From assembly GCA_945901155.1 (NCBI GenBank), contig CAMDKO010000008.1, positions 1 to 52,622 on the forward strand: 52,622 bases of DNA. The letters run 5' to 3'. The position numbers and the translations under genes are program-made. The number at the start of each line of letters is the position of its first letter. Within the stretch, counting starts at the first letter, position 1. The DNA is from Pedobacter schmidteae. Lineage in GTDB: Bacteria > Bacteroidota > Bacteroidia > Sphingobacteriales > Sphingobacteriaceae. Shown here one piece after another: positions 649-31,134 of this stretch. The notes under the pieces were generated by a model. The model saw only the letters and a program-made list of their open reading frames with translations. It made no database searches and was not told the DNA's origin.

Positions 649-690
649 GTTATCGGTTATCAGTTATCTGTTATCGGTTATCTGTTATAC
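649..690 (-). repeat. Heptad tandem array upstream of leuB
   Basis: Six in-phase 7-bp units: on the plus strand GTTATCG, GTTATCA, GTTATCT, GTTATCG, GTTATCT, GTTATAC. On the transcribed (sense) strand these read as variants of CAGATAA, CCGATAA and CTGATAA, the same family as the arrays before ftsI and ftsW. The array lies in the 238-bp cimA-leuB gap and ends about 10 bases before the leuB ATG. Confidence 0.9.
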
Positions 691-842
691 TACATTTAGA
701 ATTCTTTTTAAAAAGATGTTATTCTTTAAATTTGATTGTTTTTGGTTAAATTCTTAATGAAATTTTATAGTTTACTCCTATTTTTTTCCTTACTCCTTGA
801 TTCTTTTTCAATATTCTAAATCTATTTTCAGTAGTCGTTTGT

Positions 843-870
843 CTGATAACTGACAACAGCTAACTGACAA
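843..870 (+). repeat. Short inverted heptad array after cimA stop
   Basis: Four in-phase heptads on the plus strand: CTGATAA, CTGACAA, CAGCTAA, CTGACAA. They start a few bases beyond the cimA stop codon and are inverted relative to the array at 649-690. In the operon mRNA the two arrays are therefore partly complementary (GTTATC-type against GATAAC-type units) and could close a loop of about 150 nt. Confidence 0.8.
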
Positions 871-876
871 CTATTT

Positions 877-2394
877 TTAAATAATATTAAGCATTTTCTG
901 TGTCGATTTTATCGCACAAACAGTTTGATCTGAATCCAGACCTCTAGTTATAAATTTCTTATTTGGGGTTTCCCAGGTAATAATTGTTTCGCATAGTGCG
1001 TCCGAATTACTTCCTGGTGCAATTCTAACTGCATAATCAATTAATTTTGGCAGGGATAACTGTTTTTTAGCATATACTTTAGCAAGTGCTTTCATAAATG
1101 CATCAAACTGTCCATCGCCTTGAGCATTCTCCTCAAAAAGTTCACCGTCAATTCTAACTGAAATTGTTGCAGAAGGCCTTAATCCTTTTGAATGAGTTAA
1201 TACATACGATTCTACCACAACTTTGTCGACAGTAGAGGTGCTATTCAATACATCAGAAATGATGTATGGCAAATCTTCTCTGGTTACAGTCTCCTTCATG
1301 TCTCCCAGCTCAATAACACGCTGAGTTACCTTTTTTAAATCCTCGCCACTGAGTTTAAGCCCCAGTTCCTGAAGGTTCTTCTCAATATTAGCCTTTCCTG
1401 ATGTTTTACCAAGGGCATAAGTACGTCTTCTGCCAAACCTCTCTGGCAGTAGATCATTGAAATACAAATTATTTTTACTATCCCCATCGGCATGAATGCC
1501 TGCTGTTTGAGTAAATACATTCTCTCCAACAATTGGCTTGTTTGACGGGATTCGGATACCAGAGAAAGTTTCAACCAATTTACTCACCGTATAGATGGCT
1601 TCTTCATTGATATTAATCTCTACTTCAGACATAAAATCGTTTATGGTTGCTACTGCACTTGCAATAGAGGCGTTCCCTGCTCTTTCACCCATACCGTTTA
1701 CCGTTAAATGCAATCCGTCGGCACCTGCTCTGATCGCTTCTAAAATATTTGCATTAGCCAGATCATAATCATTATGAGCATGAAAATCAAAATGGATAAC
1801 TGGATAGCGTGATTTTATCTCAGAAATGTACTTATAAGTTTCATTAGGAGTCAATACTCCTAAGGTATCAGGCAACAATATTCTTTTTACTGGCTGTGTA
1901 GATAAAAAATCAAGATATTGATACACATACTCCGGTGAATTGCGCATGCCATTACTCCAGTCTTCAAGGTATACATTGCTTGAAATACCATGGCTTTGTG
2001 CCAATCGTATGATGTCTTCAATTTCTGAAAAATGCTGTTCAGGAGTCTTTTTGAGCTGGTGTTTCAGATGGTTTAAAGAACCTTTAGTTAATAAATTCTG
2101 AACTTTAACTCCAGCATTAGCCATCCATTCAACAGATACTCCCTGGTCAACAAATGAAAGCACTTCTATTCTGTTTGTATAGCCATGTAAGTTGGCCCAG
2201 TCCATAATAGTTTTAACAGATGTATATTCTCCGTCTGAGACCCTTGCCGAGGCAATCTCAACCCTGTCAACCTTGAGTTCTTCAATCAGCAGTTGAGTGA
2301 TTGTTAGTTTTTCTGATATAGAAAAAGACACCCCAGATGTTTGTTCACCATCGCGGAGTGTAGTATCCATTATTTCTATTTTCCTTTTTTCCAT
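877..2394 (-). CDS. cimA: Citramalate synthase (LeuA-family, Leptospira CimA type)
   Basis: A 505-residue LeuA-family enzyme: TIM-barrel catalytic domain with DTTLRDGEQ at residues 10-18 and metal-binding HAHND, followed by a LeuA dimer/regulatory domain. It reads closely along Leptospira interrogans citramalate synthase as I remember it, including EIASARVS, NVYLEDWSNG and RILLPDTLGVL. The residues that shape the pyruvate pocket there (Leu81, Leu104, Tyr144, Glu146) correspond to Leu79, Leu102, Tyr142 and Glu144 here. The expected reaction is pyruvate plus acetyl-CoA to (R)-citramalate, the entry to threonine-independent isoleucine synthesis. An upstream in-frame ATG at 2433 would add 13 residues and overlap leuD by 23 bp; I prefer the ATG at 2392-2394, which begins [18 protein letters not shown]. 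An automated pipeline may call it 2-isopropylmalate synthase; the true LeuA is the separate gene at 4563-6071. Confidence 0.88.
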   Translation of the reverse strand: MEKRKIEIMDTTLRDGEQTSGVSFSISEKLTITQLLIEELKVDRVEIASARVSDGEYTSVKTIMDWANLHGYTNRIEVLSFVDQGVSVEWMANAGVKVQNLLTKGSLNHLKHQLKKTPEQHFSEIEDIIRLAQSHGISSNVYLEDWSNGMRNSPEYVYQYLDFLSTQPVKRILLPDTLGVLTPNETYKYISEIKSRYPVIHFDFHAHNDYDLANANILEAIRAGADGLHLTVNGMGERAGNASIASAVATINDFMSEVEININEEAIYTVSKLVETFSGIRIPSNKPIVGENVFTQTAGIHADGDSKNNLYFNDLLPERFGRRRTYALGKTSGKANIEKNLQELGLKLSGEDLKKVTQRVIELGDMKETVTREDLPYIISDVLNSTSTVDKVVVESYVLTHSKGLRPSATISVRIDGELFEENAQGDGQFDAFMKALAKVYAKKQLSLPKLIDYAVRIAPGSNSDALCETIITWETPNKKFITRGLDSDQTVCAIKSTQKMLNII

Positions 2395-2410
2395 TTGAAT
2401 GGTCTTAATA

Positions 2411-3007
2411 TTATAAAGGAAGTTGTGAAGCAAATGCTTCTATTTCAGTTTTAATGTTTTGCAGGTAATCGATATCATCAAAGCCATTGACCATATTATC
2501 TTTTTTGTAAGAGCTTATGTCAAATGTTTCTTTTTGGCCTGTGGATAGTATGCAGATACGCTGCTCGGGAAGATTAACTTCAATCTCAGTTTTAGGATCG
2601 GCTTCAATTGCACGAAAGATTTTTTCTGCGAATTCTGCACTTACTTGAACAGGTAAAACTCCAATATTCAGGCAATTATTTTTAAAGATATCAGCGAAAA
2701 AACTTGATACTACACATCTAAAGCCATAATCATATACCGCCCATGCTGCGTGCTCTCTTGATGATCCAGAACCAAAATTCTTACCACCAACAAGAATTTT
2801 ACCACTGTACAAAGGATTATTAAGCACGAAATCTGATTTAGGTATATTATCTGGATTATACCTCCAGTCGCGGAATAGATTATCTCCAAATCCCACACGT
2901 TCAGTAGCTTTTAAAAAGCGTGCTGGTATGATTTGATCAGTATCAACATTCTCAATTGCAAGAGGAACCGCGGTACTTTTTAATATATTGAATTTATCGT
3001 AAGCCAT
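2411..3007 (-). CDS. leuD: 3-isopropylmalate dehydratase small subunit LeuD
   Basis: 198 residues, the usual LeuD length. LeuD forms the swivelling small subunit of isopropylmalate isomerase with LeuC, converting 2- to 3-isopropylmalate (and, in the citramalate route, citramalate to 3-methylmalate). Visible are [11 protein letters not shown] near the N terminus, the loop [16 protein letters not shown] that contacts substrate, and the C-terminal [20 protein letters not shown] stretch. It lies 32 bp after leuC and just before cimA, so translation of the three is probably coupled. The C-terminal stretch matters because a similar sequence ends the unusual LeuC-like protein at 6156-7157. Confidence 0.96.
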
Positions 3008-3039
3008 TTTATTTTGTTTTTGCGAATCATCGCTTGTTA

Positions 3040-4434
3040 TTAAATAAGAGTTCTTGGATCAGTAACAACACCGGTAATGGCTGCTGCAGCAGCAACCAAC
3101 GGACTAGCAAGCATGGTTCTTGAGCCCGGACCCTGACGGCCTTCAAAGTTTCTGTTTGACGTACTTACAGCATATTTTCCGGCTGGTATCTTATCATCAT
3201 TCATGGCAAGGCATGCTGAACAGCCAGGCTGACGCAAGGTAAATCCGGCTTCATTTAAAATATCGAGTAATCCTTCCTCTTTAATTTGAGCTTCAACAAT
3301 ATGAGACCCTGGTACAAGCCATGCAGTAACATGGTCTGCTTTTTTCTTGCCCTTCACGATGGATGTGAAAGCCCTAAAATCTTCAATACGACCATTGGTG
3401 CAGCTTCCAATAAATACATAATCTACTGGCTTACCCATCATGGATTCCCCTTCATTGAAACCCATGTAATTCAGTGATTTAGCGTAAGACGCGGCTCCAC
3501 CTTCCACGTCATTCGCATTTGGAATGGAATGTGAAATTCCCATGCCCATTCCCGGATTGGTTCCGTAAGTGATCATAGGTTCAATAGAAGCACCATCATA
3601 AGAGTATTCAATATCGAAAATCGCATCTGAATCTGATTTTAACGATTGGTAATAAGCAAGGGCTTTATCCCATGCTTCGCCTTTCGGGCTAAATTCACGA
3701 CCCTTTACATAATTAATGGTTGTTTCATCAGGTGCAATCATCCCACCTCTTGCACCCATTTCTATACTCAGGTTACAAACGGTCATACGACCTTCCATCG
3801 TCATATTTTCAAAAACTTTACCTGCATATTCCACAAAATATCCGGTTGCTCCCGAAGTGGAAAGCTGAGATATGATAAATAAGGCAACATCTTTAGGGGT
3901 GACACCTTTTCCCAGTTGTCCATTGATATTTATCCTCATTTTCTTTGGCTTCTCTTGCATGATACATTGAGTAGCAAGCACCATTTCAACTTCAGATGTA
4001 CCAATACCAAAAGCGATGGCACCAAAAGCACCATGGGTTGATGTATGTGAATCACCACAAACAATTGTAGCCCCTGGCTGTGTAATGCCGTACTCTGGCC
4101 CAACAACATGAACGATGCCATTTTTTTGATGTCCTAATCCCCAGTAGCTGATACCATATTCGTTGGAATTTGATTCCAAGGCCTTCAACTGGTTCGCAGA
4201 GAGAGGATCCTGGACCGGTAAATGCTGGTTAATGGTTGGAGTATTATGATCTGCTGTTGCGAAAGTGCGCTTTGGATATAAAACTTTTATACCTCTGCTT
4301 TTTAGTCCAAGGAATGCTACAGGGCTTGTAACCTCGTGGATGAGGTGTCTATCTATAAATAATACATCGGGTCCGCCTTCAATCTTACGAACTACGTGAG
4401 TATCCCACACTTTGTCAAACAATGTTTTGCTCAT
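3040..4434 (-). CDS. leuC: 3-isopropylmalate dehydratase large subunit LeuC
   Basis: 464 residues, full length for the aconitase-family large subunit. The three [4Fe-4S] ligand cysteines are present: Cys345 in [16 protein letters not shown] and Cys405 and Cys408 in [11 protein letters not shown], at the spacing of E. coli LeuC. The catalytic [13 protein letters not shown] motif is intact. It pairs with LeuD encoded directly downstream. The start ATG lies in a T-rich stretch with no evident Shine-Dalgarno. A 128-bp gap to leuA holds a heptad array. It is the reference for judging the degenerate paralogue two genes upstream. Confidence 0.97.
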
Positions 4435-4500
4435 ATTTTTTTTATTAATATTTAATACTTAGGAATAGATTTTATTCAATTTTTCTAATAACAATCCAAT

Positions 4501-4563
4501 AACCTAAAACCTATAACTTATTACTTATTACTTATAACCTATAACTTATTACTTATAACTTGC
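4501..4563 (-). repeat. Heptad tandem array after leuA stop
   Basis: Nine consecutive in-phase heptads. Plus strand: AACCTAA, AACCTAT, AACTTAT, TACTTAT twice, AACCTAT, AACTTAT, TACTTAT, AACTTGC. The sense strand reads AAGTTAT/AAGTAAT/AGGTTAT types. The array abuts the leuA stop codon (4563-4565). In the sense direction every unit junction carries TAA, and the 7-bp period puts it in all three frames. Confidence 0.9.
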
Positions 4564-6071
4564 TAAACAAACTTATTCAGCGCATCCACATAGGCATTTG
4601 CTGATGCTCGTACGATATCAGTACTAAATCCATAACCTACATAAGATTTACCATTATTAGTTACTCGCATATCTACTTTACTGACATCATCGCTTCCGCT
4701 ATGGATTGCGTGAATATTAAATTCTTTGATATTGAAGCTTTTGCCAATGATCTTTTCAATTGCTTTGATCGTAGCATCTACCGGTCCGTTTCCGGTTGCA
4801 GTTTCTTCGTTATCTTTTCCTTTGTAGTTTAAAACTATTGTAGCCGTTGGGCTAGCCTGATCACCACATGCTACCTTCAAACTTTTAATAGCAAGACCAT
4901 TTTTATAATTATTTTCAGACTCATGTCCCATCAAGAATAGGATGTCATCGTCCTTGATCTCTTTTTTGCCATCTGCCAGTGTAAGAAATCGTTCGTAAAC
5001 CTGATCCAGGTCAATACGGTCAATAGTATAGCCCAGACGTTCCAGATGATGATTTAATGCATGACGGCCACTTCTGGCAGTTAATATAATCTCTGACTGG
5101 TCAATACCAACATCTTCAGGATTAATGATCTCATAAGTTTCTCTATGTTTTAACACACCATCCTGATGAATCCCCGAACTATGAGCAAATGCATTTTTAC
5201 CTACTATCGCCTTATTGGGTTGAACGGGCATACGCATCATTCGGCTAACCATTCCACTCAACTCATATAAATGCTTACTGTTTACTTTGTGAGTAAATTT
5301 TAGGCTATGATGAGTTTTGAGGATCATTACAATTTCTTCTAATGCAGTATTTCCTGCACGCTCTCCTATACCATTGATAGTACATTCTACCTGGCGTGCG
5401 CCATTTTGAATACCAGCAATGCTGTTTGCAGTAGCCAAGCCCAGGTCATTATGGCAATGCACCGAAATAATAGCTTGGTCGATATTTTTAACATTTTCTT
5501 TCAGAAAGCGGATCTTTTCGCCGTATTGTTCGGGCAAGCAATATCCGTTGGTGTCAGGGATATTGACAACTGTAGCACCTGCTGCGATCACAGCTTCTAC
5601 CATTTTTGCCAGAAATTCATTATCTGCTCTTCCTGCATCTTCTGCATAGAACTCAATATCTTCAACAAAACTCTTGGCATATTTTACCGAATCAACCGCA
5701 CGTTCAAGTATTGCTTCACGGGTACTATTGAACTTGTATTTTATATGATTATCGGATGCGCCTATTCCAGTATGTATACGTGGTCTTTTTGCAAATTTCA
5801 ATGCTTCTGCAGCACAATCGATATCACCTTTATTAGCTCGTGTTAAAGCACAGATCACAGGTTCACGCACGGCTTTTGAAAGCTCCAGCACACTTTGAAA
5901 ATCACCAGGACTTGAAATAGGGAATCCAGCTTCAATAACATCAACGCCCAGATTTTCTAGTGCCTTGCCAATTTCGATTTTCTCTACTGTTGATAGCTGA
6001 CAACCGGGTACCTGTTCTCCATCCCTTAGGGTGGTGTCAAAAATATAGATGCGGCTTGGGTCGTGTAACAT
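4563..6071 (-). CDS. leuA: 2-isopropylmalate synthase LeuA
   Basis: 502 residues. It condenses 2-oxoisovalerate with acetyl-CoA to 2-isopropylmalate, the committed step of leucine synthesis. The catalytic TIM barrel opens with [29 protein letters not shown] supplies the metal-binding histidines; the substrate pocket region reads [14 protein letters not shown] and [11 protein letters not shown], as in genuine LeuA and unlike the CimA paralogue downstream. The C-terminal part (from about residue 385) is the LeuA dimer domain for leucine feedback; the [12 protein letters not shown] motif there is intact. The start is the ATG that gives [20 protein letters not shown]. It is co-transcribed with the LeuC-like gene 84 bp upstream. 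Confidence 0.96.
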
Positions 6072-6155
6072 ATTTTTTATTTTAAATAAAGCTTGTTTGC
6101 TTTATTGTGATCCAAAATATTATATTTTTTTGGACCCTTTTTTCTTAACTTGAGT

Positions 6156-7157
6156 TCAATCCTCATTAAAGATTTTATAATTCTTTGAATGTTCAAATTC
6201 TTCAATATTTTCAAGTCTGCTTAACAGGTAATCAGTATCGTTGTATCCTGATAAAATAGCAGAAGTATCGAATGCGATCTTTTCTGTATTCTGAGGATTT
6301 GATTTTGACTGCATAAGTTTTGATAATCCGATACCATAGTTACCAAAACCAACATCTTCTGCATCGAATTCAAGAACCTCATCATATACAGCACTATCAT
6401 CTGAGAATAGTTCACTTTGATATGCGATGTCTTGATTAACAGATTCGATCATTGTGCTGTTTTTTTGGGTGTAAGCAAAGGTTTTTTCATCCGGGGCTAT
6501 AAGCCCTCCGAATGCACCGATTTCTCTGCTCATTTTACAAATAGTTATTCGGCCCTCAATTTCTAAATTGAGAATGGTATCACCAGCATACTCAATAAAA
6601 TAACCCTTAGCCGCATCTGCAGCAATCTCTGACAATAGGTAATGGCTAATATGCTTTGCTTCAAGACCTTTAGCCAGTTTTCCATTAACCTCTATTTTCA
6701 TTCGTTTCGGTTTATGGATCAGCATACATTGAGTAGCAAGAACTTGTTCTACATGTAATTCATTTATTCCAATAGCAATCGAACCTAATGCACCCAAAAT
6801 ATCTGAAAATTGTTTATCACATACAATTGTTTGTCCTGGATAACTAACGTATGGACATAACTGGTCTAAACGAAGCTGTTCTATTTTGTTTAAGTCGAAA
6901 TCATTGCAGTTCCTATTTAGCATGTCAAGCTGTATGCGTGCCAGATTACTCAGAGGAATGTGCTGGATTTTTTCAGTAATTACAATTGTTTGCTTGGGTC
7001 TGTAAACAGGAATTTGGCGCTTGCGTAAGCCTTCAAAAGCTGCCAGACTCGTTATTTTATTGATTAAGTGTGTATCAATATATAAGGTGTCCAGAAAACC
7101 GGCATTGCTGCTCACCATGTGTTCATTCCAGATCTTATCAAACACTGTTTGTGCCAT
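6156..7157 (-). CDS. LeuC-like protein lacking Fe-S cysteines, LeuD-like tail (probable pseudoenzyme)
   Basis: 333 residues. The first roughly 265 align with LeuC of this operon (MAQTVFDKIWNEHMV against [35 protein letters not shown] against [27 protein letters not shown] is shared). The catalytic [10 protein letters not shown] is replaced by CDKQFSDILG, and the whole region with the three cluster cysteines is missing. In its place the last 45-60 residues read VGFGNYGIG and then FDTSAILSGYNDTDYLLSRL, resembling LeuD's VGFGDNLF and [20 protein letters not shown]. The frame is open and free of stops, so it looks maintained rather than decayed. It cannot be a normal dehydratase. A regulatory, assembly or scaffold role with LeuC or LeuD is possible but unproven. 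It sits between ilvC and leuA in the operon. Confidence 0.8.
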   Translation of the reverse strand: MAQTVFDKIWNEHMVSSNAGFLDTLYIDTHLINKITSLAAFEGLRKRQIPVYRPKQTIVITEKIQHIPLSNLARIQLDMLNRNCNDFDLNKIEQLRLDQLCPYVSYPGQTIVCDKQFSDILGALGSIAIGINELHVEQVLATQCMLIHKPKRMKIEVNGKLAKGLEAKHISHYLLSEIAADAAKGYFIEYAGDTILNLEIEGRITICKMSREIGAFGGLIAPDEKTFAYTQKNSTMIESVNQDIAYQSELFSDDSAVYDEVLEFDAEDVGFGNYGIGLSKLMQSKSNPQNTEKIAFDTSAILSGYNDTDYLLSRLENIEEFEHSKNYKIFNED

Positions 7158-7165
7158 AGTTTGAA

Positions 7166-7268
7166 GGTTATAAGTTGTAAGTTTTGAGTTTCTGCACCAC
7201 TGCTTCTACTTATCACCTACAACTTATTACTTATTACTTACAACTTACTACTTACAACTTACTACTTC
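7166..7268 (-). repeat. Inverted pair of heptad arrays between ilvC and the LeuC-like gene
   Basis: Main array 7206-7268: nine in-phase heptads on the plus strand (CTACTTA, TCACCTA, CAACTTA, TTACTTA twice, CAACTTA, CTACTTA, CAACTTA, CTACTTC), sense strand AAGTAGT/AAGTTGT/AAGTAAT. It includes the ilvC stop codon itself. A second short array in opposite orientation lies at 7166-7186 (GGTTATA, AGTTGTA, AGTTTTG). AAGTTGTAAGT at one end is complementary to ACTTACAACTT at the other, so the intergenic mRNA could fold into a hairpin. Confidence 0.88.
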
Positions 7269-8317
7269 TCAGGTTGATTCTCAGGGCGTAAACTTCTTAC
7301 TGCCTGACCTGCTTGCCATATTTCACTGTCATGAAGAGTTTTTAATTCGGCTTCAAGTTTTACTCGGTAATCAGGCTGGCTGTTCAATTTAATAGTACGC
7401 TCAGCTTCTTTTCCTGATGCCACACTCTCGTATAGTTCATCAAAAACTGGCTGGGTTGCATCACGAAAACGACCTTTCCAATCAAGTGCTCCACGTTGTG
7501 CAGTTGTTGAACAATTAGCATACATCCAATCCATCCCATTCTCTGCAACCAAAGGCATTAAACTTTGAGTGAGTTCTTCAACAGTTTCGTTGAAAGCTTC
7601 AGAAGGCGAGTGGCCATTTCTACGAAGTGTATTGTACTGTGCTTCGAAGATACCGGCGATGGCGCCCATCAAGGTACCACGCTCGCCAGTTAGATCAGAG
7701 TATACTTCTTTACGGAAATCCGTTTCGAATAAGTATCCTGAGCCAACGCCAATACCTAATGCAATAGCGCGGGTTCTTCCATTGCCAGTTACATCCTGAT
7801 GAATTGCAAAAGAAGAGTTAAGACCTTTACCTGCTAAGAAAAGACGGCGCAATGAAGTTCCTGATCCCTTTGGTGCAACTAATATTACATCAACATCAGC
7901 AGGAGGTATGATTCCTGTTTGTTCTTTGTAAGTGATACCAAATCCGTGCGAAAAGTAAAGTGCTTTTCCGGGAGTAAGGTATTTTTTGATCGTTGGCCAA
8001 AGGGCGATCTGACCTGCATCTGATAACAGATATTGAATGATTGTACCTTTTTCAGCAGCTTCTTCAATTTCAAACAGAGTTACTCCAGGTACCCAGCCAT
8101 CCGCGATAGCTTTGTCCCATGTTTTGGAGTCTTTACGCTGACCGATAATTACGTTGATACCGTTGTCGCGCAGGTTTAATGCTTGTCCCGGACCTTGAAC
8201 CCCATAACCAATTATTGCTACGGTTTCATCCTTTAAAACTTCACGAGCTTTGTCTAAGGGGAATTCTTCACGGGTTACTACCTCTTCTACAACCCCGCCG
8301 AAATTAATCTTTGCCAT
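7262..8317 (-). CDS. ilvC: Ketol-acid reductoisomerase IlvC (KARI)
   Basis: 351 residues. It catalyses the isomeroreduction of acetolactate or acetohydroxybutyrate to dihydroxy acids for valine, leucine and isoleucine. The Rossmann motif reads IIGYGVQGPGQALNLRDNG, the GPGQ variant rather than the more common GxGSQGHAHALNL, followed by the cofactor loop IIGQRKDSKTW. The metal-binding C-terminal domain includes DLTGERGTLMGAIAGIFEAQY and MYANCSTTAQRGALDW. The final codons and stop are part of a heptad array, so the array may have set the present C terminus. Lies 69 bp after ilvN. Confidence 0.96.
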   Translation of the reverse strand: MAKINFGGVVEEVVTREEFPLDKAREVLKDETVAIIGYGVQGPGQALNLRDNGINVIIGQRKDSKTWDKAIADGWVPGVTLFEIEEAAEKGTIIQYLLSDAGQIALWPTIKKYLTPGKALYFSHGFGITYKEQTGIIPPADVDVILVAPKGSGTSLRRLFLAGKGLNSSFAIHQDVTGNGRTRAIALGIGVGSGYLFETDFRKEVYSDLTGERGTLMGAIAGIFEAQYNTLRRNGHSPSEAFNETVEELTQSLMPLVAENGMDWMYANCSTTAQRGALDWKGRFRDATQPVFDELYESVASGKEAERTIKLNSQPDYRVKLEAELKTLHDSEIWQAGQAVRSLRPENQPEK

Positions 8318-8386
8318 ATTGTTTTGTTTTTACTTTTTGTTTTTATTTAATGTTATTTATTTTAATCATTTTATTTTCAGATTGAC

Positions 8387-9007
8387 CTACATCGTAAAGA
8401 TCTTCTGTCCGTTATTAAGATATTCATTCTTAGCTACTTCCTCGCCAGGTTCTGCTTTTTCAAACTCACGTAATTTGCGGTTAAAGCCATCACTATCTTT
8501 GATGATGGCCACGCGTGCACTGCGAACAAATTCGATCAGGCCAAAAGGTTGTAGAATCTTGATCAAAGCATCTGTTTCTTCACGGTGTCCTGTAGTTTCA
8601 AAAACAGTATAATCTTTACGGATCACAACTACCCGCGCACCATTTTCACGAAGTAAGCGCTCTACGCTTGCCTTTTCTGCAATAATATCTGTTGGAACCT
8701 TATATAGGGCAAGTTCCTGCCAGATCACATCTTCATTGGTATTGAAATAAACTTTCAATACTTCAACCTGCTTTTCAATTTGTCTGGATAGCTTTCTTAC
8801 CACGTCTTCAGTTTCCTGAACCACAATATTAAAACGGTGGATACTCTCTATCTCAGATGGTGAAGTATTGAGACTATGAATATTTATTTTGCGTCTAGTA
8901 AAAATGATCGCGATCCTGTTCAGTAGCCCGATCTGATTTTCGGTATAAACAGTAATATTATATTCCTGTTTTCCTGACGGTTTTTCTGTATCGTTCTGAT
9001 TACTCAT
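8387..9007 (-). CDS. ilvN: Acetolactate synthase small (regulatory) subunit IlvN
   Basis: 206 residues. An N-terminal ACT domain (about residues 14-85: YNITVYTENQIGLLNRIAIIF, then INIHSLNTSPSE) is followed by the C-terminal ALS_ss domain with RLLRENGARVVVIRKDYTVFETTG. The small subunit activates IlvB and gives valine feedback inhibition. It is encoded directly after ilvB with a 32-bp gap. The length is in the longer range for the family. Start at ATG 9005-9007 (MSNQNDTEKPSGKQ). Confidence 0.95.
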   Translation of the reverse strand: MSNQNDTEKPSGKQEYNITVYTENQIGLLNRIAIIFTRRKINIHSLNTSPSEIESIHRFNIVVQETEDVVRKLSRQIEKQVEVLKVYFNTNEDVIWQELALYKVPTDIIAEKASVERLLRENGARVVVIRKDYTVFETTGHREETDALIKILQPFGLIEFVRSARVAIIKDSDGFNRKLREFEKAEPGEEVAKNEYLNNGQKIFTM

Positions 9008-13262: not shown

Positions 13263-13270
13263 ATTTTTTA

Positions 13271-13333
13271 GATGTGAGATATGAGATATGAGATATGAGA
13301 TTGTCTCATATCTATTGTCTCAAATCTAATATC
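13271..13333 (-). repeat. Heptad array with internal inversion between atpD and atpC
   Basis: Nine in-phase heptads on the plus strand: GATGTGA, GATATGA three times, GATTGTC, TCATATC, TATTGTC, TCAAATC, TAATATC. The 7-bp phase continues across the switch from one orientation to the other. AGATATGAGA (13291-13300) and TCTCATATCT (13304-13313) form a 10-bp stem with a 3-nt loop. The sense-type half (GAGATAT, TAGATTT, GAGACAA) abuts the atpD stop at 13336; the other half reaches to about 8 bp from the atpC start. Confidence 0.9.
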
Positions 13334-13335
13334 TC

Positions 13336-15219
<1,884 letters not shown>

Positions 15220-21543: not shown

Positions 21544-21601
21544 CACTGAGGTAGGAATGACAGATGAGCAGATAAAAGAGAACGTTTGTTGTAAATTAGT
21601 T

Positions 21602-21657
21602 GAGGTATGAGGTCTGAAGTATGAGGTATGAGGATTGAAGTCTGAGCTTCGAAGATA
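21602..21657 (+). repeat. Heptad tandem array downstream of pgk
   Basis: Eight in-phase heptads: GAGGTAT, GAGGTCT, GAAGTAT, GAGGTAT, GAGGATT, GAAGTCT, GAGCTTC, GAAGATA. It lies between the convergent pgk and NTF2-like genes, in sense orientation to pgk. TATGAG junctions create ATGA/TGA in successive frames. Confidence 0.88.
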
Positions 21658-22147: not shown

Positions 22148-22526
22148 CTCTATATAATTTTAGGTTAGATTTTCTATTATTGGTTTTGCTTTTCAATACA
22201 CGAGAATAAAAAAAGAGATTGTTGAGAATTGTGTACAATTGATTTTAATGGTCTAACCGAAAGAGTTTATAGATTAAAATCGAAACCATCGGTAAAATAA
22301 GCGTTTTATTTCAGGCTTCGCAAGCATATTTAATTTATTTCTGTCATGCATAGGCGATTCCTGTTAATTTATTTAACAAACTCCGAATTGCTTTTAAGCC
22401 TCTTAGAATTAGTTTTTAGAAGAAAATTACATCCAAAAACTGTGGAAAACTTTTTTTGTGGGAGATAGTGGTAAAAAGTGGTAAGTTATTTACATTTACA
22501 ATTGAAATAAAGAGTAAAAAATAATA
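22148..22526. other. 379-bp intergenic region before the dcw cluster
   Basis: AT-rich and divergent between the NTF2-like gene and mraZ. No hidden gene seen. The right part holds the MraZ-box array at 22458-22482 and a near-consensus -7 box TACATTTA at 22491-22498 (last base differs from TAnnTTTG), 28 bp before the mraZ ATG. Confidence 0.6.
22458..22482 (+). promoter_or_regulatory. MraZ operator: three GTGGK boxes at 10-bp spacing
   Basis: GTGGG (22458-22462), GTGGT (22468-22472) and GTGGT (22478-22482), each separated by exactly 5 bp. MraZ is known to autoregulate the dcw operon by binding short direct repeats of a GTGG/TGGG-type core with 5-nt spacers just upstream of mraZ. Position (about 45-70 bp before the start) and spacing fit that operator well. 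Confidence 0.8.
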
Positions 22527-23889: not shown

Positions 23890-23907
23890 GCTTTTTAGGC
23901 TTGATAT

Positions 23908-24327
23908 ATGGGGAATCAATTTAGAAATAGTAAAACAGAAGAGGAGATTGAATCTCAGATGGAAGATGAGGTTATTCCAGAGGTAATTGAAAAGGCAGAA
24001 ATTCCCCGGAATTTTTTTACCCTAATGTTTACTGAAGGTGTGATATCAAAACAGGCTGCAACAGATATGCTTCCTTTCATCATTTTCATTGCTTTTTTAG
24101 GGATGATCTATATCGGTAACCGCCACCTCGCTGAAAATAACATTCGTGATATTGACAAGCTAGGAAAGCAAGTCAAAGAGCTAAGTTGGGATTTTAAAAC
24201 ATTAAAAGCTGACCTGATGTTAAAAAGTACACAAACAGAAGTTGCAAAGGAGGTAGATACTCTTGGCTTAATGGAACCAAATGAACCACCGAAAAAAATA
24301 ATCATTACCGAAGGAGAATTTAAATAA
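23908..24327 (+). CDS. ftsL: FtsL-like cell division protein
   Basis: 139 residues, bitopic: a cytoplasmic N terminus of about 55 acidic residues, one membrane helix (MLPFIIFIAFLGMIYIG, roughly residues 54-71), then a periplasmic coiled-coil-like segment NIRDIDKLGKQVKELSWDFKTL. Sequence identity to E. coli FtsL is not visible; the call rests on topology and on its fixed place between rsmH and ftsI, where Bacteroidota keep an FtsL-like protein. It would help recruit and activate FtsW/FtsI. Confidence 0.8.
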   Translation: MGNQFRNSKTEEEIESQMEDEVIPEVIEKAEIPRNFFTLMFTEGVISKQAATDMLPFIIFIAFLGMIYIGNRHLAENNIRDIDKLGKQVKELSWDFKTLKADLMLKSTQTEVAKEVDTLGLMEPNEPPKKIIITEGEFK

Positions 24328-24333
24328 CTAACA

Positions 24334-24705
24334 GTTATCAGTTATCAGTTATCAGTTATCAGAAAACAGACAACAGACAACAGATAACAGACAACAGACA
24401 ACAGATAACAGACAACAGATAACAGACAACAGATAACAGAACCAAGAACCAAGAACAAAGAAGAGGAGGTGCTAATTTGAAATCAGCAGTATTTTTTCAG
24501 ATAACAGATAACAGATAACAGATAACAGACAACAGACAACAGATAACCGATAACAGATAACAGACAACAGACAACAGAGCCAGGAACCAAGAACCAAGAA
24601 CAAAGACGAGGAAGTGCTAATTTGAAATCAGCAGTATTTTTTCAGACCTCTTAGCTCAGACCTCAGACAACAGACAACAGATAACAGACAACCGATAACA
24701 GACAA
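24334..24705 (+). repeat. Composite heptad repeat block filling the ftsL-ftsI gap
   Basis: Almost the whole 378-bp gap is repeat. (a) 24334-24361: GTTATCA four times. (b) 24366-24463: 14 in-phase heptads, ACAGACA/ACAGATA passing without loss of phase into CAAGAAC and AAAGAAG. (c) spacer with GTGCTAATTTGAAATCAGC and TATTTTTTCAG. (d) 24498-24609: 16 in-phase heptads, CAGATAA/CAGACAA/CCGATAA passing into AAGAACC, AAGAACA. (e) the same spacer again. (f) 24643-24705: nine in-phase heptads (CAGACCT, CTTAGCT, CAGACCT, CAGACAA, CAGATAA and so on) ending at the base before the ftsI ATG. Parts b-c and d-e are two copies of one module of about 145 bp. Confidence 0.93.
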
Positions 24706-26808
24706 ATGAACATCAGAACCGACATATTGCTCCGAGTGTACCTAGCCTTTGGCTTGATTGTACTTTTGGCCTTTGCGGTACTTTTTAAATTATTCCACGT
24801 TCAGTTTGTAGAAGGCGAAAAATGGAGATCAATGGCCGATAGCCTTTCTACCCGTTTTGCTAATGTGGAAGCTGCCCGTGGTAATATCTATTCTGTAGAT
24901 GGCAGCCTGCTTGCTACCTCTGTACCTGAGTATGAGATAAGGATGGATATGCTTGCAGGAGGTATTGAAAAAGATGATGTTTTTTTTGAAAAAGTAGATT
25001 CTCTTGCTGCCAAACTATCTGTTTTTTTTGGTGATAAGTCAACAAAACAATATTCAAGGTTGCTTCGTGAGGCTCGTGATGATAAGGCAAGATACATACT
25101 ACTTAAAAGGGATGTTACTTATCAGGAGTTAAAAGCCATTCGTGAGTTTCCAATTTTTAATCTTGGACGTTATACGGGCGGATTAATATCTGTACAGCAG
25201 AATAAACGGATCTTGCCATTCCAGTCTCTGGCAAAGAGAACCATTGGCTATAAAAATAAAAATGTTCAGCCTGTGGGTCTTGAAGGTGCTTATAGTGCTT
25301 ACATAGATGGCGAAACCGGCAAAAGAATGATGCAGCGTATCGCTGGCGGTGTTTGGATGCCCGTGAATCAGGATATTGAAATTGCCCCAAAAGAAGGTGC
25401 TGACATTATTTCTACCATTGATATCAATATGCAGGATGTGGCTCAAAGAGCTCTGAAAAATCAATTGATTACCAGCGATGCTGATCATGGTTGTGTGATA
25501 CTAATGGAAGTAGCAACTGGTGAAATTCGTGCGGTAGCTAACTTCAGTAAGGTAAGCACTGGTGAATATGAGGAGCAATTTAACTATGCGATCGCTGCAA
25601 GTCAGGATCCTGGATCAACCTTTAAACTAGCATCATACCTTTCGTTACTCGAAGATAATAAGGTAGATACAAATTCAATGGTGGCAACCGGCGATGGTAC
25701 TTACAGGATTCCTGGCCATACTATTCGCGATTCTCATGGCGGTATAGGTACTGTGACCGTGAAAAGAGCCTTTGAGGAGTCTTCAAATGTAGCAGTTGCT
25801 AAAATGATCAATGCTGCTTATCAAAATGATCAGGGAAAATTTTCGGAGCACCTTTACAAATGGGGACTCAATAAAAAATTGATGCTTCAGATCCCTGGCG
25901 AGGGACAGCCTGTCATAAAAAATCCACAGAACAAGAGTTGGAATAAAAAACAAACACTTCCGCAAATGGCTTATGGCTATGAAATGCAGATCACTCCCTT
26001 ACAAATGCTTGCCTTTTATAATGCAGTTGCAAATGATGGTAGATATATCGCTCCAATTTTTGTTCGTGAGATCAGACGACTGGGTAATACTGTTGAACTG
26101 TTTAAAGCCCGGGTTATCAATGAAAAGATCGTATCAGATATCACCATTAAGAAGGCCCAAGCTCTTTTAGAAGGTGTTGTGACCCAAGGCACAGGCAAAG
26201 GCCTTGCTTCTCCTTTGTACCGAATTGCAGGTAAAACCGGTACTGCACAGGTAGCTGATGCAAATAAAGGTTATCAGGTTGATAAAAAATACCAGGCATC
26301 ATTTTGTGGATATTTCCCAGCCGACAACCCAAAATATTCACTGATCGTTGTAGTGAATAATCCTCGTAAAGGCACTTATTATGCAGCTTCAGTTGCTGGA
26401 CCAGTTTTTCGCGAGATCGCAGACCGCGTTTATGCCAGTGATGTGAACATGTTTGATGCATTGAAAGATCAAAAATTTACTGGAAACTTAATCATGCCAG
26501 AATCTAAAATTGGGGAGAAGAAGGCAACACAAAATGTTTATAAAACGTTTGGAATCAAAGCATTGTTTGCTGCGAACTCTGATTACGTGATGGTTGATAC
26601 AAATAATAAAATTGCCAATAAGGATGTAAAAATCATTGAAGGATCTGTTCCTGATGTCAATGGAATGGGCTTAAAGGATGCATTATTTGTATTAGGTAAT
26701 TCAGGTTTGAAAACCCTAGTTCGCGGAAGCGGAAGAGTAGTTAGACAATCATTACTTGTCGGAACAAGGGTTGCAAAAGGTGATCCAATTATTTTAGAAC
26801 TTGAATAA
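24706..26808 (+). CDS. ftsI: Peptidoglycan transpeptidase FtsI (PBP3-type) with C-terminal PASTA domain
   Basis: 700 residues. One N-terminal membrane helix (about residues 9-30), a PBP dimerisation/pedestal domain, then the transpeptidase domain with Ser304-x-x-Lys307 (STFK), SSN at 359-361 and KTGT at 510-513. The last 65 residues form a PASTA domain (SVPDVNGMGLKDALFVLGN to DPIILELE). It cross-links septal peptidoglycan with FtsW. There is no Shine-Dalgarno: the ATG follows directly on a CAGACAA heptad. The stop overlaps the murE start (TAATG). Confidence 0.96.
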   Translation: MNIRTDILLRVYLAFGLIVLLAFAVLFKLFHVQFVEGEKWRSMADSLSTRFANVEAARGNIYSVDGSLLATSVPEYEIRMDMLAGGIEKDDVFFEKVDSLAAKLSVFFGDKSTKQYSRLLREARDDKARYILLKRDVTYQELKAIREFPIFNLGRYTGGLISVQQNKRILPFQSLAKRTIGYKNKNVQPVGLEGAYSAYIDGETGKRMMQRIAGGVWMPVNQDIEIAPKEGADIISTIDINMQDVAQRALKNQLITSDADHGCVILMEVATGEIRAVANFSKVSTGEYEEQFNYAIAASQDPGSTFKLASYLSLLEDNKVDTNSMVATGDGTYRIPGHTIRDSHGGIGTVTVKRAFEESSNVAVAKMINAAYQNDQGKFSEHLYKWGLNKKLMLQIPGEGQPVIKNPQNKSWNKKQTLPQMAYGYEMQITPLQMLAFYNAVANDGRYIAPIFVREIRRLGNTVELFKARVINEKIVSDITIKKAQALLEGVVTQGTGKGLASPLYRIAGKTGTAQVADANKGYQVDKKYQASFCGYFPADNPKYSLIVVVNNPRKGTYYAASVAGPVFREIADRVYASDVNMFDALKDQKFTGNLIMPESKIGEKKATQNVYKTFGIKALFAANSDYVMVDTNNKIANKDVKIIEGSVPDVNGMGLKDALFVLGNSGLKTLVRGSGRVVRQSLLVGTRVAKGDPIILELE

Positions 26809-28268
26809 TGAAGATACTCAAGGATATATTGTATGGCGTATCTCTTTTAAAGGTAATTGGTTCAACTGAATCGGAAGTTAATGCGATATGCTTTGATTCA
26901 AGGAAAGTAATGCCTGGCGTTCTGTTTGTTGCTGTTCGTGGTACTGCATCAGATGGCCATGCATTTATTGATCAAGCCATCGATCTTGGTGCTTCTTCAA
27001 TTCTATGTGAAGAGTTTCCATCAAAATTCAGAGAGCATATTAATTATTTTCTGGTAGATAATTCAGCTAAGGCTTTAGGTATTATCGCATCTAATTTTTA
27101 TGACAAGCCTTCAGCAAAACTAAAATTGGTTGGAGTTACGGGAACCAATGGAAAAACAACAATTGCTACGCTTCTTTTTCAATTGTTTCGTGATCTGGGT
27201 TATAAAACCGGATTGCTATCAACTGTTCAGAACCAGATTAATGATCTGATCATTCCAGCTACTCATACAACACCTGATCCTATTGCTTTAAACTCTCTCT
27301 TACTAGATATGGTGAAAAGCGGTTGTGACTATTGTTTCATGGAAGTTAGTTCGCATGCTGTTGCACAATCAAGGATTGAAGGGCTCGATTTTACTGGAGG
27401 GATATTTACAAATCTTACCCATGATCATCTAGATTTCCATAAAACATTTGATTCTTATTTAAAAGCAAAAAAAGAATTTTTTGATCACCTCAATACGAAG
27501 GCATTTGCATTAACCAATATTGATGATAAAAATGGGATGGTGATGCTTCAGAATACGGAGGCTCATAAAAAATCGTATGGGCTTAAGAATATCGCTGATT
27601 TTAAAGCAAAGATCATTGAAAACCATTTCAGTGGCTTACTTCTGAATATTGATCATGAGGAGGTTTGGTTTAAAATGGTGGGCAGCTTCAATGCCTATAA
27701 TTTACTTGCTGTTTATTCAGCAGCCCTTTTGCTTGAACAAGATAGATTAAAGGTTTTAACCTCATTAAGTCGATTAAGTGGTGCCGAAGGTCGATTTGAT
27801 TATATGATATCTCCATCAGGAATTATTGGAATAGTTGATTATGCACATACTCCAGATGCAGTACAAAATGTGCTGAGCACTATTCAGGATATCCGAAAAG
27901 GTACTGAGCAGGTTATTACAGTGATAGGATGTGGCGGCGACAGAGATAAATCAAAACGTCCGGTTATGGCGCAGGTGGCTTGTGATTGGAGTGATAAAGT
28001 AATACTGACCTCTGATAACCCTCGAACTGAGGTTCCAGAGCAAATTATTAGGGATATGGAGGCAGGTGTTATGCCTCAGAATAAAAGAAAAGCACTTTCT
28101 ATCACTGACAGAAAAGAGGCCATTCGCACGGCATGTCATCTGGCAAAATCTGGTGATATTATTGTGGTTGCCGGTAAAGGACACGAAAAATATCAAGACG
28201 TTGGAGGTGAAAAGTTTCCGTTTGATGATAAAGAAATATTAACTGAATTTTTAAATCTGGTAAGCTAA
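26808..28268 (+). CDS. murE: UDP-MurNAc-tripeptide synthetase MurE (meso-diaminopimelate adding)
   Basis: 486 residues. It adds the third residue of the stem peptide. The Mur ligase ATP loop is [14 protein letters not shown], followed by EVSSHAV and [12 protein letters not shown]. The DNPRTE motif that selects meso-diaminopimelate is present in [13 protein letters not shown], consistent with a Gram-negative wall. Its start and stop both overlap neighbours by TAATG, so ftsI-murE-mraY-murD are translationally coupled. Confidence 0.97.
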
Positions 28269-29509
28269 TGTTGTATTACTTATTTACTTGGCTTGACAAG
28301 CATTATGATATTCCCGGGGCAGGATTGTTCCAGTTTATATCATTCCGTACCGGTATGGCTGTGATTTTGTCGCTCCTTCTGACAACTGTTTATGGTAGCC
28401 GTTTGATCAGAATATTACGCGCTAAACAAGTAGGTGAGACCGTTAGAAACCTCGGTCTGGATGGGCAGATACAAAAGCAAGGGACACCAACAATGGGAGG
28501 TTTGATTATACTTCTCGGAATTTTGGCTCCAACTCTTTTATTTGCCCGTATAGATAATATTTATATCATACTGATGCTAATCACTACTGTTTGGATGGGA
28601 GCGATTGGGTTTGTTGATGATTATATAAAGGTGTTTAAAAAAGATAAAGAAGGTCTTGCAGGGCGTTTTAAGATCATGGGTCAGGTTGGGTTGGCTTTGA
28701 TCATTGGATGGACCATGTATTTTCACCCGGATATTGTTGTAAGAGAGCAGGTTACTTTACCTGCTAAAGTACAAGCTTCATTGGATGTCCACAAACGTGG
28801 CGATCAATTTTATTATACTCAGGATATTAAGTCGACCATTACCAATGTGCCTTTTTACAAGGATAATGAATTCGATTATGCCAAAGTTCTTACAGTTTTT
28901 GGGGATCAGTATGAAAAGTATTCTCTCGTTGTTTTCTTGCTTTTTGTAATTGTTATAGTTACAGCAGTTTCTAATGGTGCAAATCTTACGGATGGAATCG
29001 ATGGCTTAGCAACAGGAACATCGGCCATTATTGGTATTACGCTAGCCATACTTGCTTATGTTTCCGGAAATGCCATTTTTGCCGATTACCTCAATATTAT
29101 GTATATCCCCTATTCAGGAGAGCTGGTGATATTTGCCGGTGCTTTTGTAGGAGCATGCGTAGGCTTTTTATGGTATAATTCGTATCCAGCCCAAGTATTT
29201 ATGGGCGATACGGGTAGCCTGGCCATCGGTGGGATCATCGCTGCATTTGCGATTATGATCAGGAAAGAACTACTTATTCCTGTGTTATGTGGAGTATTTT
29301 TAGTTGAGAACCTTTCGGTGATCATGCAGGTCTCTTATTTTAAATACACTAAAAAGAAATATGGCGAAGGTCGTCGCATTTTTCTGATGTCGCCGTTACA
29401 TCATCATTATCAGAAAAAAGGATATCATGAGGCCAAGATCGTGACACGGTTCTGGATCGTTGGAATTGTACTGGCTATTTTAACAATTGTGACTTTAAAG
29501 CTTAGGTAA
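28268..29509 (+). CDS. mraY: Phospho-MurNAc-pentapeptide translocase MraY
   Basis: 413 residues with about ten membrane helices. It transfers phospho-MurNAc-pentapeptide to undecaprenyl phosphate, making lipid I at the inner membrane. Signatures: [25 protein letters not shown] with the two catalytic aspartates, [24 protein letters not shown] and the loop [12 protein letters not shown] stretch of about 60 residues ([16 protein letters not shown] to FGDQYEKYS) between helices is longer than in E. coli, as is usual in Bacteroidota. Confidence 0.97.
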
Positions 29510-30861
29510 TGGCAGAGAAGAGATATATCGTTATTCTTGGAGCCGGCGAAAGTGGGGTTGGTGCAGCTTTACTGGCACAGAAGGAAGGTTATACAGTGTT
29601 CGTTTCAGATTTTGGCCCTATTGCTGAACATTATAAAAAAGATCTAGAGAGCGCAGCAATTTCTTTTGAAGAAAATGGGCATTCTGAGGAACGTATTTTA
29701 TCAGCCTCCGAAGTAGTAAAAAGTCCGGGGATTCCTGATAAAGCTTCTATTATTAAAAAATTAATTGAAAATAATATCCCAATACTTTCCGAAATCGAAT
29801 TTGCCGGGCGTTACTCTAATGCAAAAATGATTTGTATTACAGGTTCTAATGGTAAGTCGACTACGACCCTGCTAACCTATCATATCCTAAAAAATGCAGG
29901 GCTGAATATAGGTCTTGCGGGAAATATAGGAAAGAGCTTTGCACGTCAGGTAGCATTCCAGAATTTTGATTACTATGTTTTGGAGATCAGCAGCTTTATG
30001 CTTGATAATATGTATGACTTCAGAGCTGATATTGCTGTATTATTAAATATTACACCTGACCATTTAGACAGGTATGACTATAAAATGGAGAATTATTCTG
30101 ATTCTAAATTCAGAATCATTCAAAATCAAAAACAAGGAGATGTGTTTATTTATTGTGCCGATGACGAAGAAACTCAGAAGGGTCTTTTAAAACATCAGAT
30201 CAATGCCGATGCCTTTCCTTTTTCTATTGAGAAAATTCTTGATCATGGAGCCTTTCTTCAGGATGACCAGATCAATATAACCCTTCACCATAAAAATCAA
30301 GAATCATTTACTATGTCAATTAAAGATTTAGCTCTTCAGGGTAAGCATAACATTTACAATTCTATGGCTTCGGGCATAGTAGCAAAAGTGCTTGAATTAA
30401 GGAATGAAACTATTCGCGAAAGCATGGCAAGTTTCACAAACATTGAACATCGGCTTGAACATGTTGCCCGTATATCAGGAATTGATTTTATCAATGATTC
30501 AAAGGCTACTAACGTGAATTCTACTTGGTATGCACTTGAAAGTATGCCTGGCGAAGTTGTTCTTATTCTTGGTGGGGTAGATAAGGGCAATGATTATAAC
30601 ATGTTAAAAGATCTTATAAAATCAAAAGTGAAAGCAATAGTCTGTCTTGGCAAGGATAATAAGCGAATTCATGAAGCATTTGAAGATGATGTAGAGGTAA
30701 TTGTAAATACTTTTTCAGCAAATGAAGCAGTTCAGATAGCCTATCATTTAGCTAAAAAAGGCAATACTGTTCTCTTATCGCCTGCTTGTGCCAGTTTTGA
30801 CTTGTTTAAGAATTATGAAGACCGTGGAAACCAGTTTAAAAAAGCCGTAAAAGAACTTTAA
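29509..30861 (+). CDS. murD: UDP-MurNAc-L-alanine:D-glutamate ligase MurD
   Basis: 450 residues. N-terminal UDP-binding Rossmann domain (IVILGAGESGVGAALLA), central ATP-binding domain with the P-loop ITGSNGKSTTTLLT and NITPDHLDRYDY, and C-terminal ligase domain with FINDSKATNVNSTWYALES and LLSPACASFDLFKNYEDRG. It adds D-Glu to UDP-MurNAc-L-Ala. Coupled to mraY by TAATG overlap; the 276-bp gap downstream is a heptad repeat block. Confidence 0.97.
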   Translation: MAEKRYIVILGAGESGVGAALLAQKEGYTVFVSDFGPIAEHYKKDLESAAISFEENGHSEERILSASEVVKSPGIPDKASIIKKLIENNIPILSEIEFAGRYSNAKMICITGSNGKSTTTLLTYHILKNAGLNIGLAGNIGKSFARQVAFQNFDYYVLEISSFMLDNMYDFRADIAVLLNITPDHLDRYDYKMENYSDSKFRIIQNQKQGDVFIYCADDEETQKGLLKHQINADAFPFSIEKILDHGAFLQDDQINITLHHKNQESFTMSIKDLALQGKHNIYNSMASGIVAKVLELRNETIRESMASFTNIEHRLEHVARISGIDFINDSKATNVNSTWYALESMPGEVVLILGGVDKGNDYNMLKDLIKSKVKAIVCLGKDNKRIHEAFEDDVEVIVNTFSANEAVQIAYHLAKKGNTVLLSPACASFDLFKNYEDRGNQFKKAVKEL

Positions 30862-30879
30862 ATTTTGATACCTAAGCAG

Positions 30880-31134
30880 CAGATAACAGAAAATGGAACC
30901 AAGAACCAAGAGCAAAGAACAAAGACTGTTTAGTGCTAATTGAAATTTACTTTTTTTTCAGACCTCAGACCTCAGATAACAGATAACAGATAACAGAAGA
31001 AAGGCAAAAGCAGAAAGCTAAAAGCTAAAAGCAGAGAAGAACAATCATTTGAAATGATGAGTCGGAGGTAATTTTAACTAACCAACTGACAACTGATAAC
31101 AGACAACTGACAACAGATAACAGACAACAGACAA
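30880..31134 (+). repeat. Composite heptad repeat block in the murD-ftsW gap
   Basis: Three in-phase arrays. 30880-30928: CAGATAA, CAGAAAA, TGGAACC, AAGAACC, AAGAGCA, AAGAACA, AAGACTG. 30959-31042: CAGACCT twice, CAGATAA three times, CAGAAGA, AAGGCAA, AAGCAGA, AAGCTAA twice, AAGCAGA, GAAGAAC, 12 units without a phase break although the motif changes twice. 31086-31134: CTGACAA, CTGATAA, CAGACAA and so on, seven units ending 3 bp before the ftsW ATG. The spacer at 30929-30958 (AGTGCTAATTGAAATTTAC, then a T-run and CAG) is a third, diverged copy of the spacer found twice before ftsI. A small palindrome TCATTTGAAATGA lies near 31046-31058. Confidence 0.92.

Follow-up and report, generated by a model that had tools for sequence, protein, structure and literature searches.

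Intergenic arrays of 7-bp units, with gene-edge polarity and dispersed cassettes, in a genome of the Sphingobacteriaceae

Tandem repeats with a unit of seven base pairs have been described in several groups of bacteria, and the present work sets beside them a family of heptad arrays found in the window, by which we mean the whole 52,622-nucleotide contig CAMDKO010000008.1 of a Sphingobacteriaceae genome. TAACTGA direct repeats are on record for Beggiatoaceae, for cyanobacteria and for five Bacteroidetes, in some of which they are mixed with other heptamers (MacGregor 2015, PMC4679880). According to the parts of that paper that deal with a Beggiatoaceae genome, TAACTGA is favoured there while its single-base variants are seldom repeated, the repeats lie mostly just upstream of starts and in forward orientation, and a role in translational regulation is proposed. 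A second system is the GGGAATC arrays of Xanthomonas, which in the relevant sections of Rehm 2015 (PMC4692102) lie near the upstream gene and form convergent inverted pairs in 70 and 75 cases; the same sections cover the GGGGA(C/T)T heptamer arrays of Nostoc and cite three heptanucleotides of Calothrix. Mrazek et al. 2007, as cited in both papers, found 7 bp to be a favoured unit of long repeats and proposed polymerase slippage.

The period of the arrays in our window is exact, and it is specific. Contig C8, which is the window, belongs to a 2.74-Mb genome (191 contigs, 93% complete), labelled G000 in a set of 20 genomes of the genus. That genus is Daejeonella: the MurE of the window matches three named Daejeonella records at 84-86% identity, and a congener, G004, has a 60-base stretch in common with Daejeonella sp. 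H1SJ63. Its close relatives in the comparison are G002 and G016, respectively 94% and 93% identical to G000 over murE, G016 being only 82% complete. A sequence-only reading of the window had claimed a strict 7-bp period at eight places. Tandem Repeats Finder (TRF) gave period-7 rows at all eight, and a strict lag-7 scan (+1 for a match, -2 for a mismatch, score of at least 14) found 12 arrays covering seven of them; the remaining place, 843-870, is weak, with a TRF score of 32, and falls below the strict cut. Over 428,315 bases of the own genome, namely the window and 20 further stretches, lag 7 gave 75 arrays, as against 0-2 for each other period from 2 to 6 and from 8 to 13, and the expected excess over other short periods is thus present. 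The 58 arrays at lag 14 arise because multiples of 7 must also score. The window was picked for its arrays, and it supplies 12 of the 37 lag-7 arrays in a by-number set (the window plus 13 stretches of the own genome picked by contig number alone); the other 25 lie outside it, and other periods gave 0-1 in this set. Third-order Markov copies (two replicates, the copied set including one foreign locus, L100) held no period-7 array. Tandem 7-bp units beyond chance, the mark of heptanucleotide long simple sequence repeats, are therefore found here. The suggestion that arrays occur only between genes holds for 72 of the 75, though intergenic DNA makes up only 11.5% of these bases, and fails for three. 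Genes were called as the longest open reading frames (ORFs) of at least 100 aa, leaving out ORFs that consist largely of arrays. Among the fetched stretches, L001-L013, L101-L109, L111-L132, L135 and L160-L163 were picked by number, L142-L144 and L149-L151 as window orthologues, and L014-L020, L110, L133, L134, L145-L148 and L152-L159 for holding matches. The arrays of the window and their parts are as follows.

649..688, minus strand: heptad array of CAGATAAC type, 10 bp upstream of the start of a minus-strand gene (ATG at 638); TRF and lag-7 scan.
843..872, plus strand: weak TAACTGA-type heptads adjoining the stop of gene 877-2433 (minus strand); TRF score 32.
4501..4561, minus strand: AAGTTAT/AAGTAAT array beginning 1 bp past the stop of gene 4563-6071 (minus strand; LeuA-type, with HMGL-like and LeuA_dimer domains); TRF and lag-7 scan.
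7166..7190, plus strand: short AAGTTGT heptads, inverted relative to the next array; by eye.
7206..7267, minus strand: AAGTAGT/AAGTTGT array overlapping the final codons of gene 7262-8317 (minus strand); TRF and lag-7 scan.
13270..13301, plus strand: GAGATAT array, with one unit fewer in G016; TRF.
13302..13335, minus strand: inverted partner heptads, GAGACAA/TAGATAT on the minus strand, reaching the stop of gene 13336-14841 (minus strand); by eye.
21601..21657, plus strand: GAGGTAT/GAAGTCT array between convergent genes; TRF and lag-7 scan.
24332..24462, plus strand: unbroken lag-7 run from CAGTTAT through CAGACAA/CAGATAA to AAGAACC, 4 bp past the stop of an ftsL-like gene.
24463..24497, plus strand: copy 1 of core alpha, in a divergent version; non-heptad, hairpin-like by eye and followed by a T run.
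24498..24606, plus strand: CAGATAA/CAGACAA array passing in phase to AAGAACC; TRF and lag-7 scan.
24607..24642, plus strand: core alpha copy 2, of the same divergent form as copy 1; present too in G002, at the start of contig C154.
24643..24705, plus strand: CAGACCT and then CAGACAA/CAGATAA heptads, running right up to the ATG of an ftsI-like gene (24706).
30896..30925, plus strand: GAACCAA/GAGCAAA heptads at the start of an alpha cassette; lag-7 scan.
30926..30957, plus strand: core alpha copy 3; the whole cassette is absent in G016.
30958..31035, plus strand: CAGACCT, CAGATAA and then AAGCTAA heptads in one phase; 30958-30997 by lag-7 scan, the rest by eye and TRF.
31036..31082, plus strand: second dispersed non-heptad stretch of about 47 bp, beginning AGAGAAGAACAATCATTTGAAATGATGAGTCGGAGG; related stretches occur in L002 and L004.
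31083..31134, plus strand: CAACTGA/TAACAGA heptads that end 3 bp short of the ATG of an ftsW-like gene (31138).

The two longest arrays, read earlier as periodic over 24334-24705 and 30880-31134, do have a period of 7, but they are not heptads throughout, being interrupted by three cores of about 35 bp and by the stretch of about 47 bp. The phase is kept where one unit type gives way to another, as had been noted: 24332-24462 is one unbroken lag-7 run, and 24498-24609 and 30959-31042 are in register by eye. At 7166-7190 and 13302-13335 the heptads run, again by eye, in the orientation opposite to that of the neighbouring arrays.

The arrays draw on a limited vocabulary. The 75 own-genome arrays reduce to 26 consensus heptads shared across loci, and CAGACAA (14 arrays), CAGATAA (8), GAGATAT (7), CAGTTAT (7) and AAGAACC (6) together account for 42 of them. 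A loose common form, xAGxY[AC][AT], had been proposed from the window alone; it fits 46 of the 75 consensus units, compared with 12.8 for shuffled heptads. The idea of locus-specific heptads needs qualification, since 6 of 7 orthologous array spacers retain their heptad class in every close relative open to comparison, but the same heptads serve many loci. Neighbouring units of an array resemble each other more than shuffling would leave them: with 28 arrays pooled, 0 of 500 shuffles reached the observed likeness at lag 7, and again 0 of 500 at lag 14.

How does this compare with the described systems? The sequence-only reading took the cyanobacterial STRR repeats as its nearest analogue, which we take to be the heptanucleotide repeats of Calothrix, and knew of no named counterpart in Bacteroidota. 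That last statement has to be withdrawn, as TAACTGA direct repeats have been reported in five Bacteroidetes (PMC4679880) and the window holds exact TAACTGA repeats of this published kind: 24332-24362 is an exact tandem TAACTGA on the minus strand, CAGTTAT on the plus strand. Set against what that paper describes in its sections on these repeats, our arrays are likewise intergenic, patchy, mixed with other heptamers and often abut start codons. They differ from them in their 26 consensus heptads, in which TAACTGA is not the favoured unit (7 arrays, against 14 for CAGACAA and 8 for CAGATAA), in their composite cassettes and in having post-stop arrays at least as common as pre-start ones. With the Xanthomonas and Nostoc arrays, as far as the sections of Rehm 2015 describe them, they share the 7-bp period and the intergenic position, and with those of Xanthomonas also the closeness to the upstream ORF, the convergent inverted pairs and the variation of length between close species. 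They are unlike both in that no consensus unit contains GGG; GGG in successive units, the mark of G-quadruplex heptamer arrays such as GGGAATC, is not seen, and GGG or CCC occurs somewhere in only 6 of the 75 arrays. For the long simple sequence repeats and the Calothrix repeats, the citations consulted mention no shared vocabulary, no phase preserved across changes of unit and no cassettes. The kind of repeat is therefore already known, and what is new here is the polarity at gene edges, the cassettes and the turnover in steps of seven in Sphingobacteriaceae; a literature search of titles and abstracts, with most subscription journals outside it, returned no heptad arrays in Sphingobacteriaceae and no inward polarity in Bacteroidota.

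The arrays crowd against gene edges. For position and polarity the counts were pooled over five sets of loci, leaving arrays with equal G and C out of the polarity counts; the replicates are not fully independent, as stretches of G002 and G016 partly overlap the window orthologues. Of 145 arrays, 64 are no more than 10 bp away from a gene edge, where 20.7 would be expected at random placement within their own spacers. Among arrays within 30 bp of an edge, the strand read inward from the gene has more G than C in 29/29 at starts and in 39/44 at stops, and at start edges it is accordingly the G-poorer sense strand that adjoins the ATG; the ftsI-like (24706) and ftsW-like (31138) genes are examples. 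Background skew may explain part of this at start edges, where array-free spacer ends read inward are G-richer rather than C-richer in 66:35, but not at stop edges, where the ratio is 35:34. Stop codons were also considered as a cause of the polarity, and this explanation was dropped because the commonest classes, CAGACAA and CAGATAA, carry no stop codon on the inward G-richer strand (by eye).

The start-edge arrays fit the placement of TAACTGA repeats just upstream of starts, though stop edges have at least as many arrays. A rival view is that the arrays are selected regulatory sequences, that is, 5' leaders or sites for an RNA-binding protein, or 3' trailers, with a period that fits that reader. 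The arrays do abut starts of cell-division genes, several relatives have heptad-like AAC-rich leaders at the same ftsI-like and ftsW-like starts, the inward polarity at starts is without exception, and translational regulation is what the discussion of the Beggiatoaceae repeats proposes (MacGregor 2015, PMC4679880). We nevertheless regard this view as distinctly improbable. Within 30 bp of an edge, stops have at least as many arrays as starts (44 versus 29), and spacers between convergent genes have arrays as well; unit number, and once the heptad class, differ between relatives 93-94% identical over murE; several relatives have spacers of 4-52 bp at the murD-ftsW and ftsL-ftsI sites; and an Rfam search of the window matched nothing beyond one tRNA.

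Array lengths turn over rapidly between close relatives. When G000 was compared with G002 and G016, spacers with an array in either genome changed by more than 2 bp in 19/19 orthologous pairs, and 18 of these differ by at least 7 bp (median 40), while array-free spacers changed this much in 13/71, the other 58 staying within 2 bp. Array spacers are longer, with a median of 276 versus 95 bp; for spacers of at least 100 bp only, the figures are 19/19 and 7/33. Gaps of at least 4 bp are multiples of 7 in 26/72 cases in array spacers and in 6/48 in the others (binomial 3.4e-6 versus 0.70), so that whole-unit length variation, also a trait of heptanucleotide long simple sequence repeats, is enriched but not exclusive. 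In the window, the spacer holding 4501..4561 measures 128/155/168 bp in G000/G002/G016 and that holding 21601..21657 measures 142/128/110 bp; the 13302..13335 arm is 14 bp shorter in G016; and the spacer 639-876 has more units in G016 (about 9 in the array corresponding to 649..688) and an entirely different heptad class in G002. The whole-spacer comparison for ftsL-ftsI is limited, the G002 contig beginning inside it. Two separate observations concern spacers of the same genomes. The divergent array-free spacer 22148-22526 has 379 bp in the window and in G016 and 1583 bp in G002, about 1.2 kb more, and a short palindrome, CCCGATAGCTATCGGG, recurs in spacers of L002, L004, L005 and L017 as well as in the G002 orthologue of 639-876.

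Some arrays are built into composite cassettes that are dispersed over the genome. Their core, alpha, is a non-heptad sequence of about 35 bp (CTGTTTAGTGCTAATTGAAATTTTCTGCTTTTTTC) found repeatedly with AAGAACC-type heptads to one side of it and CAGACCT/CAGATAA-type heptads to the other. With up to 3 mismatches, two pattern searches found it at 19 and 24 places of the own genome, the reversed controls giving 0. In the 20 genus genomes it was counted 19 times in G000, 21 in G002, 10 in G016, and once each, with 2 mismatches, in G008 and G014; the divergent form at 24463-24642 is also found in G002. In 150 further genomes of the order, a few of them congeners, there were 2 matches with 3 mismatches each and 1 in the control, and therefore matches are near chance there. 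Of 32 alpha cores in the fetched own loci (up to 5 substitutions), 26 are flanked left and right by arrays no more than 60 bp away; among 2800 random intergenic points, 312 have any array that close. Tandem cores are spaced 136, 115, 178 and 150 on contig C19 and 88, 123 and 109 on C30; for the commoner alpha type, 9 of 13 spacings equal 3 modulo 7 despite very different lengths. G016 lacks a cassette at both spacers of the dcw cluster, murD-ftsW and ftsL-ftsI. The murD-ftsW cassette is present in G000 and G002, and in G000 it has AGATAACAGAA on both sides, a pattern that fits either acquisition of the cassette through array-to-array exchange or its deletion between direct repeats.

Elements that are dispersed and polymorphic in this way bring to mind a mobile element. 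REP elements are dispersed and intergenic and sometimes occur as inverted pairs; they are moved by RAYT (Y1) transposases. Our arrays share the dispersed intergenic position and the occasional inverted pairing, but they are tandem 7-mers, which REP elements are not. The arrays could be the worn ends and insides of one non-autonomous element, similar to REP or to a miniature inverted-repeat transposable element (MITE), with a core of about 35 bp, heptad arms and a transposase acting in trans. The many copies of alpha, their two-sided array flanks and the presence/absence polymorphism of the cassettes are what one would expect of it. Against these stand the many arrays of other heptad classes whose spacers are free of an alpha core, so that alpha was also rejected as the source of every array. 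Neither a terminal inverted repeat nor a fixed target duplication was seen by eye, without a systematic search, and the 80 murE loci from other species, lag-7 arrays being present in 13 of them, gave 0 matches to alpha. The Y1_Tnp family has 0 matches in G002, which among 60 relatives has the most matches to the TAAC-type pattern, and in G016 (82% complete), yet it occurs in 13 of the 20 genus genomes, including G003 and G012, which have no match to the TAAC-type pattern; a RAYT/Y1 transposase was accordingly dropped as driver, since its occurrence does not track the arrays. We consider a mobile element unlikely as the general explanation. Other repeats were noticed as well. L004:17959-18237 and its G002 orthologue contain higher-order tandem units ending in AAGCTAATTGTGCA and then heptads, the units differing in an inner heptad (CATATCT, CAATACT or CAGACCT), and a longer dispersed repeat, ACGAAGGTCCCTCACCTGCTGAAGGGCAGGGTTCGGGATGACATT, stands beside arrays twice in L017:3643-4246 and once in L018:2430-2910.

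Outside the close relatives, the distribution is patchy, also among congeners. A three-unit TAACTGA/CAACTGA pattern matched in 31 of 395 Bacteroidota genomes and 15 of 170 genera, the own genome included, with 3 for the reversed control; in the own genome it has 41 overlapping matches. Among 60 relatives, G002 has the most matches to the TAAC-type pattern, 465 genome-wide, but only 3 lag-7 arrays (2 intergenic) in 160 kb picked by number, and array density is therefore uneven. Five congeners without the TAAC-type pattern had 0 lag-7 arrays in 184 kb. The 80 murE loci of other species held 18 lag-7 arrays, all intergenic, and in some species the murD-ftsW and ftsL-ftsI spacers carry different heptads (CAATTGA, CAACTAA, GAAGGTT), several of which begin at the stop codon. 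The period-10 arrays of the murE loci, 21 of them intergenic, come mostly from Pedobacter records such as L040-L043.

As for the neighbouring genes, two of the aconitase family, 3040-4434 and 6156-7157 (both on the minus strand), lie near the LeuA-type gene; one is full-length, with 464 aa, and the other, with 333 aa, covers profile positions 1-287/463 only.

Taking these observations together, we think that the arrays probably come from 7-nt slippage combined with recombination from array to array, their placement being filtered by selection. Units would be gained and lost through slippage by 7 nt in DNA copying or repair, and point changes followed by further slippage would convert one unit type to another without loss of register. 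Arrays with heptads in common may recombine, moving cassettes from spacer to spacer and sometimes swapping spacer content, and selection would decide where arrays survive. Since 7 is not divisible by 3, arrays may be barred from coding DNA. Shine-Dalgarno sequences are naturally absent from Bacteroidetes, and the parts of PMC6847099 that treat initiation have it adjusted through mRNA structure and an A at -3. Arrays may be tolerated up to the start codon because Shine-Dalgarno sequences are not used and an unstructured A-rich leader is favoured, which the A/C-rich sense strand of an array would supply. The lag-7 excess, the length changes by multiples of 7, the core spacings modulo 7 and the likeness of neighbouring units give good support to the earlier proposal of a single process that adds and removes 7-bp units. 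Its companion, a separate homogenisation of each locus, is upheld in part, but the shared vocabulary, the common-core cassettes in different arrays and the change of class at 639-876 in G002 speak for some exchange among loci.

Several results weigh against slippage with recombination. In array spacers 46 of the 72 gaps are not multiples of 7, and the 26 that are owe something to the method, because an aligner tends to put 7-gaps in periodic DNA. The core spacings are alignment-free but few, and cassettes at one locus may be mutual copies; for a second core type, 4 of 7 spacings agree modulo 7 (corrected P 0.07, not significant alone). Unit likeness shows no excess at lags 21 and 28 (92/500 and 383/500 shuffles, 28 arrays pooled), and unit order is individually significant in only 7 of 28 arrays. 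The same 80 murE loci also gave arrays of other periods, 9 with lag 8 and 24 with lag 10, and therefore 7 is not the only period outside the genus. Slippage does not account for the G-richer inward strand at stop edges, where array-free spacers are unskewed; it is known by its footprint only, and unequal recombination would give the same steps. Folding of co-directional spacers of 90-420 bp gave z < -2 in 7/15 with arrays and 12/40 without, and RNA structure was set aside as a common feature, array spacers as a group folding no stronger.

The strong preference for 7, the phase kept through unit changes and the patchy distribution among congeners might instead point to an enzyme dedicated to duplicating blocks of 7 nt where genes begin and end, and the convergent pairs that the pertinent sections describe for Xanthomonas (PMC4692102) would suit it too. 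We find this very hard to credit: no candidate gene is known, Y1_Tnp, the sole family tried, does not track the arrays, and ordinary slippage suffices.

A bolder reading, which we offer as speculation and do not expect to hold, is that one active 7-nt process rewrites intergenic spacers in many bacteria, from both gene edges inward, with fixed strand polarity and a small vocabulary recurring in unrelated phyla, the arrays here serving also as landing platforms that exchange composite cassettes. On the practical side, such arrays adjoin start codons of cell-division cluster genes, and one G002 contig has its end inside an array. The inward polarity at gene edges, together with the convergent pairs of Xanthomonas, constrains any mechanism that may be proposed. 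As to why seven is favoured in long bacterial repeats, the literature, as represented in the portions of PMC4679880 that take up the question, offers only the cited suggestion that 7 nt is the contact length of a polymerase. A genus that has both array-rich and array-poor genomes, and in which close relatives proved unlike in length at all the array spacers compared, makes this question testable.

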